This document shows positions 19,024 through 22,927 of a DNA stretch of 44,908 nucleotides, in pieces (positions within the stretch are counted from its first letter, which is position 1; each line of letters opens with the position of its first letter). The notes under the pieces were generated by a model that did not search any database, had not been told where the DNA came from, and saw nothing but the letters and a program-made list of their open reading frames with translations. Where the stretch lies: positions 1-44,908 of the forward strand of contig CALXKL010000012.1 of assembly GCA_944388965.1 (NCBI GenBank), read 5' to 3'. This DNA comes from an uncultured Spirochaetales bacterium. Its GTDB lineage: Bacteria; Spirochaetota; Spirochaetia; Sphaerochaetales; Sphaerochaetaceae. The translations under genes and the position numbers were made by a program.

Positions 19024-19659
19024 ATGAAGAAGCTGTTTCCTCTTGCATTGATCATCGTCGTCCTCGCCCTCGTCTCCTGCAGCGGTGACACGCCATCGCC
19101 GGATGGAGGGATTGTCAATCCGGGTGGAGGCGGTACATCCTCCAGCTACCAGCTGTTCAAGGAGCTGTACAGCGAGGAGGCTGCCGCGGATGAGGGCGTA
19201 TCCATCATCACTGAACGGTTGCTGGCCCAGGAGATCGTCCCGGAGAGCATGGCGGAATACGAGGCGACTGAGCAGGTCATATACGACGAGTACTACGCCA
19301 CGACAGGGAACCTCGACGACCAGCTGGAGGCGGGCACGATAACAGATGTCGAATACTACGAAGGCCTTCAGAAGGCGAGACTGCTTTGGCAGGAGAAGCT
19401 GATGAGACTGGACATGGAATGGCAGCAAAGGGATGTCTGGGAGGGCTTTTCGATGATTGCGAGGATCGCCAACCGGTCAGACTGGGCAAGGGCTTTCAGG
19501 ATCGTCGTCTGGGATGGCGACATCTATACGGACGAAGGTGTCGTCTATTCGTCGCAGACGGTCACACTGCCTCCGGAGTCCGATGACGTCTACACCTTCC
19601 GGATAGCGACTGGAGGACGTTATCTGGAATCGTTCTTCATGGGTGTGGATCTGATCTGA
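19024..19659 (+). CDS. Prophage-encoded lipoprotein of unknown function
   Basis: A 211-residue protein starting at the ATG at 19024 with a textbook lipoprotein signal: MKK, a hydrophobic stretch and the lipobox LVSC (Cys19), followed by a Gly/Pro/Ser-rich linker. The mature part is acidic, with helices around residues 40-140 and a beta-rich C-terminus (TVTLPPESDDVYTFRIATGG). It is transcribed opposite to the late genes and is separated from them by 76 bp, so it can be expressed independently, as phage 'moron' genes are. A longer frame upstream was rejected because it overlaps the holin on the other strand. Surface alteration or superinfection exclusion are possible roles, not shown. Confidence 0.65.
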   Translation: MKKLFPLALIIVVLALVSCSGDTPSPDGGIVNPGGGGTSSSYQLFKELYSEEAAADEGVSIITERLLAQEIVPESMAEYEATEQVIYDEYYATTGNLDDQLEAGTITDVEYYEGLQKARLLWQEKLMRLDMEWQQRDVWEGFSMIARIANRSDWARAFRIVVWDGDIYTDEGVVYSSQTVTLPPESDDVYTFRIATGGRYLESFFMGVDLI

Positions 19660-19682: not shown

Positions 19683-20195
19683 TCATGCTTCATCCTGGCC
19701 ATCAGCGGTCACAATCGAAATGAACGTGCTGGCCGTCATATATATTCTGACCAGAACAACACTCATCAGAAAACATGCCAAAAGAGTGAAAATGGATGAA
19801 ACACCAAATGCTGCTGCTGATACGGTCTCTTCGTCTTTCATGTCAAGATAATATGCTCCTTTATACAGTATGGAGATGAAGAACAGCACGACCAGCAATC
19901 TTATCACCCGAAGAAGGTTCTCCTTGAAGATGCTCCAATACGGGGTGTGAGCAACCCCTTTGCGGATCCATTCCTTGTCTGCAAGCACCTGAAGGAGGGA
20001 ATAGAAAGTCAAAAGTACGCCAATGAAAGTGAACGAGAAAGAAGCAGAGAGAGCTGCAATGTCGTTCGCAAGGCCTACGACCTCATCACCTTTTCTTCCA
20101 AACCAAAGCAGCAGCCCCATCAGGCATGACATTATCAGCCCGACTGCAACAGGCCTTATCCAATCACCCCAGAGAAATCCACTGTCCCTATTCAT
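19683..20195 (-). CDS. Four-TM membrane protein, partner of the 343-residue gene
   Basis: A 170-residue protein with four predicted membrane segments (about residues 14-32, 48-70, 95-112 and 127-150) and short charged loops. It lies 21 bp downstream of the 343-residue gene on the same strand and is therefore probably made with it and with the repressor. No family was recognised. Base composition is clearly more AT-rich than in the structural genes, as in its partner, which suggests that the two arrived together. A membrane partner for a cytosolic sensor would fit a prophage-borne exclusion or abortive-infection system, but this is inference from context. Confidence 0.6.
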   Translation of the reverse strand: MNRDSGFLWGDWIRPVAVGLIMSCLMGLLLWFGRKGDEVVGLANDIAALSASFSFTFIGVLLTFYSLLQVLADKEWIRKGVAHTPYWSIFKENLLRVIRLLVVLFFISILYKGAYYLDMKDEETVSAAAFGVSSIFTLLACFLMSVVLVRIYMTASTFISIVTADGQDEA

Positions 20196-20216
20196 GACTC
20201 CAATTCTGGCACACGA

Positions 20217-21248
20217 TCAAAGCGTGTTTTTCGTCCGCTCAACAAGAAGATGGCGCTGTTTCAGGAAATCGTCACGCATAGCCTCGAATACCGTGACATT
20301 TGCTACATACCTCCCTTCGTAACAGACTGATGTACTTAGCATGATGTCATCAGAAATGAAGTCCAAAGCGTCGGTTTGTCCATTCTTGTCCCGTCCCTCG
20401 ATCTTAAACTGCTTCTTCTCGCTTGTGGACTGGAAGCGGCTCGACAGGTTGTTGAAGAGCCGTCTGATTCCCGAAGCATCTAGACTGCCGTTTCGCTTTG
20501 ACCTGATCTTCACTTCGATTGAGAAGCCACCTAGGCTCTCCATGTCATCAATGGAATTGCCTTTTGAAGCCATGATCATTGCCTCGTCACTGGAGGAGTA
20601 TCCTGGAACCTGCATGGATTGACCTTCCCTTCCTCCGAGCTTGTAAATGAGCTGAGACACCCTTGCGAACCTGGCAAGATGGCCGAAGACATCCTCTGCC
20701 GGGATGTATGCAGCATTGAGCCTGTTTGCAAACCGATTCCCAATCATCAGTCTGTATTTCTTCGAATCTTCCCCTCCGGCCAGAAAGCCATTGAGATAAT
20801 AGCGGAACTGATTCAAAGAGCCCACATTCCTATTGTTGAGCAGAAGGATAATTCCATTCACCTTGTCGACCATGAAGTAGCTTACCTCGAACATGAAGGA
20901 CTTATCCCCAATCTCTATTTTCCTGACGACAAGACTGTCATCCGTCTGAGTCCCTTGCCGAGGAAGTGCCATGTCACGCTTTTTCATGAATAGGCCGTAG
21001 ATGAAATCGTCAGTATCAGCTGGCACTACAAAATCCGAATCGCCGGTGAGATTGTCGCCGTGGAATGCGATAAGTCTCTGCTCTTCATCTCCTGAATACC
21101 TATCTGAAATAGGCACCGACCTTATGTATGCAAACAGACCTGCAAGCTCGGAGCCAGTGAGCTTCTGTCCATTCATTTCTCCTGGTACGGTCTTCTCCCA
21201 TACGGAATAGAAACCCTTGATTGGTTTGTTTTTGATGTTGTTTCCCAT
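20217..21248 (-). CDS. Unrecognised 343-residue protein in the repressor operon (DUF6731-like pattern)
   Basis: A 343-residue soluble protein whose ATG (21248) is preceded by GGGGAGG and lies 13 bp after the repressor stop codon, so it should be transcribed from the repressor promoter in the lysogen. The order of elements (N-terminal YSVWEKT region, a WLF-like core with FEVSYFMVDKVNGIILLL, a run of helices with RFANRL, and a C-terminal IEGRDKNGQTDALDFI segment ending in a long helix) recalls the uncharacterised DUF6731 group, by eye only. No nuclease, ATPase or other catalytic motif was seen. Its AT-rich codon use matches the downstream four-TM gene. Kiwa (KwaA/KwaB) has a similar membrane-plus-soluble layout, but the sequence does not look like KwaB. 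Confidence 0.6.
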   Translation of the reverse strand: MGNNIKNKPIKGFYSVWEKTVPGEMNGQKLTGSELAGLFAYIRSVPISDRYSGDEEQRLIAFHGDNLTGDSDFVVPADTDDFIYGLFMKKRDMALPRQGTQTDDSLVVRKIEIGDKSFMFEVSYFMVDKVNGIILLLNNRNVGSLNQFRYYLNGFLAGGEDSKKYRLMIGNRFANRLNAAYIPAEDVFGHLARFARVSQLIYKLGGREGQSMQVPGYSSSDEAMIMASKGNSIDDMESLGGFSIEVKIRSKRNGSLDASGIRRLFNNLSSRFQSTSEKKQFKIEGRDKNGQTDALDFISDDIMLSTSVCYEGRYVANVTVFEAMRDDFLKQRHLLVERTKNTL

Positions 21249-21261
21249 ATTACAACCTCCC

Positions 21262-21975
21262 CTAGTTCGCGTACCTGTGCAGCCAGCCTATGACCTTGCC
21301 CAGGATGATCACCCTGTCCGGATCCACGACCTTGTCCGGATAGTCGCTGTTCTTCGAGATGATGCGCAGCTTCCTCTCCACGGTGTCTATCTCCAGCCTC
21401 TTGACGATGACCTCCGTGTCCAGGGCCATGACGTAGATCCCGTTCCCCCTGACGAGATTGTGGCAGGCGAAGACGAAGTCGCCGTCTATGAGGTCTATGT
21501 CCTGCATGGAGTCCCCCACCACCTCCGCCGCGAAGATGTCGTCCTTGGGGTATCCCAGGAAGAACTTCTCGAGCGTGGGCATGCGCAGCTCGCGGAAGTC
21601 AGCCTGGGACCATTCGCAACCGGGTCCGGCTGAGACCTTGGAGGCGAGGATGGGGACCGAATAGGTGGAACTGTCTTTTTGAATCAGAATGGTTTTGCCA
21701 GAAGGTGTCTTATATTCTCCTGAGTCGATTGCAAGCTGATTTGAACTAGATGGATTCGAGACGGCAGAAACAATCATTTCACCATTACCGGTTAATAGCC
21801 AATTAACATTCAGGCCAACTGAATTAATCAACTTAGTTTTTAGTTCATCGGGAATATTCGCCTTTCCACTTTCATAGTTTGCATATGTTGTTTGTGCAAT
21901 ACCAAGCATATCACCCATTTTTTTCTGCGAGAGTTTCAAACTATCTCTTAGCTCTTTTAATCGCAAACTAACCAT
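21262..21975 (-). CDS. Phage repressor, XRE-type HTH with S24/LexA-like self-cleaving domain
   Basis: A 237-residue CI-type repressor. Residues 4-60 form an XRE helix-turn-helix (LSQKKMGDMLGIAQTTYANYESG). The C-terminal peptidase domain has the Ser156 motif VGDSMQD and Lys192 in VIVKRLE, and a plausible Ala116-Gly117 cleavage site (SKVSAGPG). Damage-induced self-cleavage, as for lambda CI, would release the early operon; this is known of the family and inferred here. The HTH-coding part is AT-rich compared with the peptidase part, suggesting that the DNA-binding half was exchanged. The gene diverges from the early operon across a region of half-site repeats. Confidence 0.9.
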   Translation of the reverse strand: MVSLRLKELRDSLKLSQKKMGDMLGIAQTTYANYESGKANIPDELKTKLINSVGLNVNWLLTGNGEMIVSAVSNPSSSNQLAIDSGEYKTPSGKTILIQKDSSTYSVPILASKVSAGPGCEWSQADFRELRMPTLEKFFLGYPKDDIFAAEVVGDSMQDIDLIDGDFVFACHNLVRGNGIYVMALDTEVIVKRLEIDTVERKLRIISKNSDYPDKVVDPDRVIILGKVIGWLHRYAN

Positions 21976-22000
21976 AATCTACCTGTTTTTATCTAATTTC

Positions 22001-22056
22001 TAGTTGACAGTAAACTACGAAATAGTTAACCTGTTTCTAGGTTGAAATTTAAACCT
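22001..22056. promoter_or_regulatory. Operator cluster between repressor and early operon
   Basis: Six half sites alternate in orientation: TAGTT (22001), AACTA (22013), TAGTT (22023), AACCT (22028), AGGTT (22039) and AACCT (22052). They form several inverted repeats, for example AACCT-N6-AGGTT (22028-22043) and AGGTT-N8-AACCT (22039-22056). The last overlaps the -35 box of the early promoter, as expected for a repressor operator. Confidence 0.6.
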
Positions 22057-22099: not shown

Positions 22100-22927
22100 G
22101 TGGAAACGCAACTCAAGAAGCTCATGACGGATTGGGATTATGACAAGGCGGTTGCGCTTGCCAGACCAATTGCAGAGGACTGGAAGAAACGTACTATCGA
22201 GATGGCTCGAATTCTGTACATCGCTAACGAGCAACTCAACAAAAAGGGCAAACGAACTGATTTGGCATTGAAAGGTTCAACTAAATGCAACGTTGCATTA
22301 GGTTCGGCTAACAAAACGCCCACATGGGAGGATTTCTGCATTGAAATCGGTCTCCCGATTAGAACGGCTTATGACTGGCTTGCATGCTATGACCCGGACA
22401 AGGACCTTCTCCTCTCCCACTCCGAATACAAGGAGGCGCGCCAGCTCGAACTCACGACGCTCTATGAGGACGTATACGCGAAGCGCAAGAAGGATGAGGG
22501 CTATGTGCCCGAGAAGCTCAGTCTCAAGTGGAACCGAAAGCAGACGAAATGGAGCGAGACGAAGTTCCAGAAGTGGGTCGCAGAGAAGGAGCAGACGGTA
22601 CAGGGGGAGGCGATTGCGAACCTCGTCCCGGACCGCTATTCGAAGGTTACCAGGTTCGGGCTCTGGACGATCGACTACATGATGGAGCTTCGCGACAGTT
22701 GCGAGGAGCTTACCTCGGGTGCCAGGGCAAGGCGTTTCAGCGACCTGGTCAACGCGTACGCACCGAAGATGCCGAAGTCGATCGACTCGCGTTCCTTCAT
22801 GCGGGCCGCCGTCCTGGTGGAGGGCGTCCTTTCATCCCTCCCCCAGGCGGACAGGGACTACTGCCGTGCACTTCTCGCCGACCTTCTCGGCAGGGATGGA
22901 TACAACAGGGAGGACCAGGATGATTGA
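22100..22927 (+). CDS. First early protein, unknown function
   Basis: A 275-residue protein starting with GTG at 22100; a perfect AAGGAGGT (22081-22088) stands upstream. The N-terminal half (ALARPIAEDWKKRTIEMARILY, then TWEDFCIEIGLPIRTAYDWL) contains a helix-turn-helix-like segment similar to plasmid/phage DUF3102-type proteins, so DNA binding is plausible. The C-terminal half is helical and basic. The first 250 bases are AT-rich and the rest GC-rich, suggesting a recombination joint inside the gene. Being first in the early operon, it may act in regulation or host takeover; no function is known. Confidence 0.6.
   Translation: METQLKKLMTDWDYDKAVALARPIAEDWKKRTIEMARILYIANEQLNKKGKRTDLALKGSTKCNVALGSANKTPTWEDFCIEIGLPIRTAYDWLACYDPDKDLLLSHSEYKEARQLELTTLYEDVYAKRKKDEGYVPEKLSLKWNRKQTKWSETKFQKWVAEKEQTVQGEAIANLVPDRYSKVTRFGLWTIDYMMELRDSCEELTSGARARRFSDLVNAYAPKMPKSIDSRSFMRAAVLVEGVLSSLPQADRDYCRALLADLLGRDGYNREDQDD

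Follow-up and report, generated by a model that had tools for sequence, protein, structure and literature searches.

A probable diverged RexAB-type exclusion pair in the repressor operon of a spirochaete prophage

In phage lambda, Gordonia phage CarolAnn, Mycobacterium phage Sbash and Pseudomonas putida, lysogens express the two genes of RexAB-type exclusion systems together with the repressor or close to it. RexA binds DNA as a dimer, irrespective of sequence, and upon an infection signal it activates RexB, which damages the membrane so that growth stops (PMC11077077, PMC6426606, PMC6426596, PMC12894663). In CarolAnn, repressor and exclusion pair share a transcript, and the pair is both necessary and sufficient for defence (PMC6426606). 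RexABpp of P. putida consists of a DNA-binding RexA-like protein and a RexB-like protein with four transmembrane (TM) segments, and acts by membrane damage (PMC12894663).

The window analyzed here, a stretch of 44,908 nucleotides from an uncultured Spirochaetales bacterium, represents a prophage region, in which a large terminase gene is present. Three of its minus-strand genes follow one another head to tail:

21262-21975, minus strand: CI-type repressor of 237 aa with HTH and S24 autoprotease domains (Pfam, PHROGs), first gene of the operon
20217-21248, minus strand: putative RexA-like soluble protein of 343 aa, assigned to the DUF6731 superfamily by BLASTP, custom profile and family model
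19683-20195, minus strand: putative RexB-like four-TM membrane protein of 170 aa, assigned by hydropathy peaks, position and size, with marginal profile similarity

The repressor contains HTH_19, HTH_3 and Peptidase_S24 domains (Pfam) and matches phrog_4 at E 5.5e-41. The 343-aa gene is preceded by a ribosome-binding site graded good (GGGGAGG) and the 170-aa gene by TTGGAG. A scan of the minus strand between the three genes revealed no terminator-like sites. The open reading frames and the gaps of 13 and 21 bp behind the repressor confirmed what a preliminary description of this DNA had stated. Its remark that the pair is AT-richer also stands, because the GC content is 58.7% in the window and 63.5% in the terminase gene, but 47.8% and 46.6% in the two genes. 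Lambda cI-rexA-rexB has the same gene order and strand, the same close spacing and likewise a soluble protein followed by a four-TM protein. An adjacent soluble-then-membrane gene pair in a prophage, which characterizes RexAB-type systems, is thus present in the window. We consider it probable that the two genes form a diverged RexAB-type exclusion (abortive-infection) system as the distal portion of the repressor operon of the prophage. The preliminary description had proposed a repressor-coupled exclusion or defence pair without naming RexAB. Homology of the soluble protein to DUF6731, the fold of this family, the recurrent pairing of soluble and TM genes and the cI-rexA-rexB order support that proposal and point to the RexAB type.

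Neither protein was recognized in searches of Pfam, NCBIfam, PADLOC and PDB sequences, in agreement with the preliminary description, which had recognized neither. The 343-aa protein matched phrog_10865 in the PHROGs collection at E 2.3e-4. It had been called DUF6731-like by eye; the Pfam model PF20505 (DUF6731) was silent, with no match up to E 1 and the curated cut-off of 27 bits not reached, but pairwise and profile comparisons proved the designation right. The only phage record matching the protein came from the P. aeruginosa phage AUS531phi (E 0.2, a weak match covering 77% of the length). This relative is a DUF6731 member (PF20505, E 8.6e-13), and pairwise BLASTP of the two proteins gave E 4e-8 over approx. 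270 aa with 20% identity. A profile built from the DUF6731 proteins of the fetched loci scored the window protein with 16.1 bits, and the score was 33.0 bits with three further gammaproteobacterial members in the profile (E 1.7e-12, a one-comparison E value). With either profile, 0 of 1000 shuffled copies scored as high. These similarities exceed the shuffled controls and identify DUF6731 proteins as homologues of the 343-aa protein.

To find close relatives, the 343-aa sequence was searched against viral contigs, genome contigs, plasmids and 139 genomes of the family, and a profile was run on 395 genomes of the class; the window itself was the only match. FlaA, the flagellar sheath protein of spirochaetes, was found in 40 of 41 sampled Spirochaetota genomes, the exception being the source genome; its absence there fits the non-motile Sphaerochaetaceae. 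When both window proteins were compared directly with lambda RexA and RexB, sequence similarity was not significant, and the models PF15969 and PF15968 as well as the RexA and RexB models of PADLOC did not match the pair. A RexA Pfam match in one spirochaete (L028) was set aside, as it was below the cut-off and located in a 467-aa ORF. Comparison of DUF6731 with lambda RexA by sequence profile was marginal, since 18-59 of 1000 shuffles scored as high, and the DUF6731-RexA link consequently rests on structure.

A direct AF2 model of the 343-aa protein was too poor to show a fold (pLDDT 39); its input was a seven-row alignment including badly aligned lambda rows. Structural matches of this model, RdgC among them, were discounted. 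In contrast, the AlphaFold model of cdtI orf54, a phage DUF6731 protein, calculated from a 21-row alignment with the window protein among the rows, was good (pLDDT 77.6, pTM 0.77). Its best match in the PDB was lambda RexA (8TWQ; Foldseek E 2.2e-7), with a Z score of 13.1 and 158 residues aligned at 3.6 Å, while the next entry reached Z 8.0. Yeast and human CENP-N/Iml3 kinetochore proteins followed with Z 5-8, and RdgC was found with Z 5.5 (Foldseek E 8e-5). For the RexA crystal structure, RdgC and kinetochore proteins have likewise been reported as relatives (PMC11077077). According to the model, DUF6731 has the RexA fold. The window protein takes over this assignment through homology, so that a RexA/RdgC-like fold is supported for it through its family.

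The 170-aa protein exhibits four hydrophobic peaks (at 15, 46, 93 and 131), the same number as lambda RexB, and the four membrane segments listed in the preliminary description were thereby recovered. Hydropathy thus provides the four-TM RexB-like protein expected of a RexAB-type pair. In the window protein and in lambda RexB alike, positive charge is highest in the TM2-TM3 loop, as would suit a central loop on the cytoplasmic side. Compared with a profile of three TM partners of DUF6731 proteins, the 170-aa protein scored 9.5 bits (a score reached by 0 of 1000 shuffles in one run and 2 of 1000 in another) and lambda RexB 8.2 bits. Sequence likeness to RexB is marginal, and the protein is assigned as RexB-like chiefly by its position, size and four-TM topology.

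A survey of DUF6731 genes in other phages and genomes displayed a recurrent gene pair. In AUS531phi, the DUF6731 gene is located directly after a Cro/CI-family repressor gene and before a gene for a small membrane protein, which matched PADLOC RexB at E 2.9e-5. Phrog_17119 was weakly touched by this membrane protein, by the partner at locus L094 and by lambda RexB. The first survey, which covered phages and genomes, comprised 28 distinct DUF6731 loci, and at each of them a gene for a 3-4-TM protein of 113-161 aa is located immediately downstream of the DUF6731 gene or overlaps it. Fewer than 28 independent events underlie this figure, since related lambdoid prophages of enterics account for many of the loci. 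The pairs of phage cdtI and of E. coli prophages are encoded between Q and the lysis genes on the opposite strand. The survey of co-occurrence suggested in the preliminary description thus revealed soluble and TM genes that recur together, and not independent common families found apart from each other.

Several of these loci deserve separate mention. The cdtI pair orf54-orf53 (DUF6731 and four-TM; L003:3580-4968, plus strand) is antisense between Q and holin, and near-identical copies were present in 23 of 5,426 complete E. coli genomes. In a gammaproteobacterial genome (L094:1453-2741, plus strand), the DUF6731 and TM genes overlap by four bases with no repressor ahead; the soluble protein matched the PADLOC defence candidate PDC-M67A at E 1.4e-6, which suggests that PDC-M67A may be RexA-like. 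Two distant members in gammaproteobacterial genomes (L095:1366-2232 and L096:1375-2241, both minus strand) adjoin a helicase-like gene, possibly another defence arrangement.

The latter two members have no TM partner, which speaks against the RexAB assignment, as do the lack of a significant match of either window protein to lambda RexA or RexB, the poor model of the 343-aa protein itself and the marginal RexB likeness. The same orphan members and the missing direct similarity to RexA, together with a fold common to RdgC and kinetochore proteins, could be taken to mean that the 343-aa protein is a RexA-fold protein with another job, such as an RdgC-like DNA-binding or recombination factor, located beside a membrane gene by chance as cargo without defence function. 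We regard this as very unlikely, given that RexA stands approx. 5 Z units above all other PDB entries, that the pairing with TM genes recurs and that the repressor-linked position is found in two unrelated phages.

Three operator-like sites lie next to the repressor gene:

21975-21991, no strand assigned: operator-like 17-mer a, identified by repeat scan and comparison, identical to 17-mer c at 13 of 17 positions
22001-22017, no strand assigned: operator-like 17-mer b, near-perfect dyad TAGTTGACAGTAAACTA, conserved at 14 of 17 positions in the sister prophage
22023-22039, no strand assigned: operator-like 17-mer c, conserved at 16 of 17 positions in the sister prophage

In 17-mer b, seven of eight half pairs follow the dyad, as found for 0.07% of the 17-mers of the window. 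Divergent from cI and in the place of cro, a gene at 22100-22927 (plus strand) codes for a 275-aa protein of no known family, far bigger than a Cro protein. On the other side, convergent with the rexB-like gene, a gene at 19024-19659 (plus strand) codes for a 211-aa lipoprotein with a signal peptide and cysteine, for which surface exclusion or another cargo role is possible.

The sister prophage was found on contig 18 of a genome of the same genus (G008; loci L098 and L109). Its repressor is 67-70% identical to that of the window, and the syntenic neighbours are conserved as well (terminase 75%, small membrane protein 45%, lipoprotein 43%, divergent gene 45% and 709-aa protein 68%). Of the three operator-like 17-mers, which are located between the repressor and the divergent gene, two have counterparts. 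The only genes replaced are the two between lipoprotein and repressor:

L098:97-1513 (= L109:7225-8641), minus strand: soluble and membrane protein pair of the sister prophage, in the slot behind the repressor

Genes for a soluble protein of 322 aa and a membrane protein of 153 aa occupy the slot, ordered as in the window, and sequence similarity of these proteins to the window pair was not detectable. The 322-aa protein matched solely phrog_3482 (E 2.3e-4, full length), for which a search of 148 genomes gave no match. Comparison of the sister pair with RexA and RexB did not reveal a relation. A clean pair-for-pair exchange with the surroundings kept is as expected for an exclusion cassette under selection.

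Operator-like sites adjoining cI, and the report that lambda RexA without RexB can shift the switch towards lysis (PMC11077077), would suit a pair that mainly tunes the lysis-lysogeny switch, with the RexA-like protein binding DNA of the operator region and favouring the lytic state, and exclusion secondary or absent. This is quite unlikely in our estimation, as it leaves unexplained both the conserved membrane partner and the unrelated pair in a sister prophage with the same switch. For the RexAB-type reading, a broader version has about an even chance of being correct: DUF6731 would be the wider RexA family, and the slot behind CI in this spirochaete prophage lineage would take interchangeable, sequence-unrelated RexAB-type pairs (343 + 170 aa in the window, 322 + 153 aa in the sister), with repressor, operators and flanking lipoprotein kept. 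If so, RexAB-type exclusion would be a broad and fast-diversifying class of prophage defence, largely missed by current tools. The two sister prophages constitute a natural experiment with the same repressor lineage and switch and a different putative exclusion pair.

The function of the pair is inferred by analogy, with co-expression in the lysogen, DNA binding, sensing and membrane damage taken from lambda, P. putida, Sbash and CarolAnn. As long as the prophage is silent, the CI promoter would transcribe the pair as well. The 343-aa RexA-like protein would act as a dimeric, non-specific DNA-binding sensor that is triggered upon infection by another phage, either by DNA-protein intermediates or by a phage protein. 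It would then activate the four-TM RexB-like protein, which would permeabilize or depolarize the inner membrane, so that growth stops and the infection is aborted. Reversed roles, with the soluble protein as antiviral effector that the membrane protein keeps inactive until infection, have a precedent in gp30/gp31 of mycobacteriophage Butters, where gene kinds and layout are alike (PMC12894663). Because of Butters, the direction of control is unreadable from layout alone, and the sequence is silent on it; four of the five described systems act in the lambda manner, and we judge the reversed arrangement unlikely.

The layout, the DUF6731 homology, the RexA fold of DUF6731 (by model), the TM pairing and the cassette replacement come from the present analysis of a RexAB-type candidate. 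The class of system is known; as far as checked, its occurrence in Spirochaetota, where this pair is apparently the first seen, the DUF6731-RexA link and the cassette exchange are new. The link may be new because DUF6731 was mentioned nowhere in the literature searched, in which most subscription journals are missing. Tying DUF6731 to RexA would contribute many members carried by prophages, among them pairs of E. coli and Pseudomonas prophages testable in standard laboratory strains.

Compared with lambda RexA and RexB, the window proteins are longer (343 versus 279 aa and 170 versus 144 aa), pairwise similarity is not significant and the RexA/RexB models miss the pair. Kiwa, in which a four-TM KwaA is combined with KwaB, was considered for its four-TM and soluble layout, and gene order and fold favour Rex; the Kiwa models of PADLOC matched neither the window pair nor its relatives, and a distant relation is compatible with such an absence of matches. 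Gp30/gp31 of Sbash form a RexA-like and four-TM exclusion pair (PMC6426596). They are not repressor-linked and lack profile similarity to DUF6731 or the TM partners. PADLOC also missed this accepted Rex-like pair, indicating that its RexA and RexB models are narrow. CarolAnn gp44/gp43 are a RexA-like and four-TM exclusion pair with the cI-rexA-rexB arrangement of the window (PMC6426606), and RexABpp of P. putida prophage P1 (PP_5643-5644) is, like the window pair, a two-gene prophage system (PMC12894663). The DUF6731 (PF20505) and TM pairs of AUS531phi, cdtI and E. coli prophages, whose function is predicted, share a homologous soluble protein at approx. 20% identity with the TM gene directly downstream. 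Pairs of the cdtI type are located between Q and the lysis genes, whereas the AUS531phi pair follows CI, as in the spirochaete prophage.
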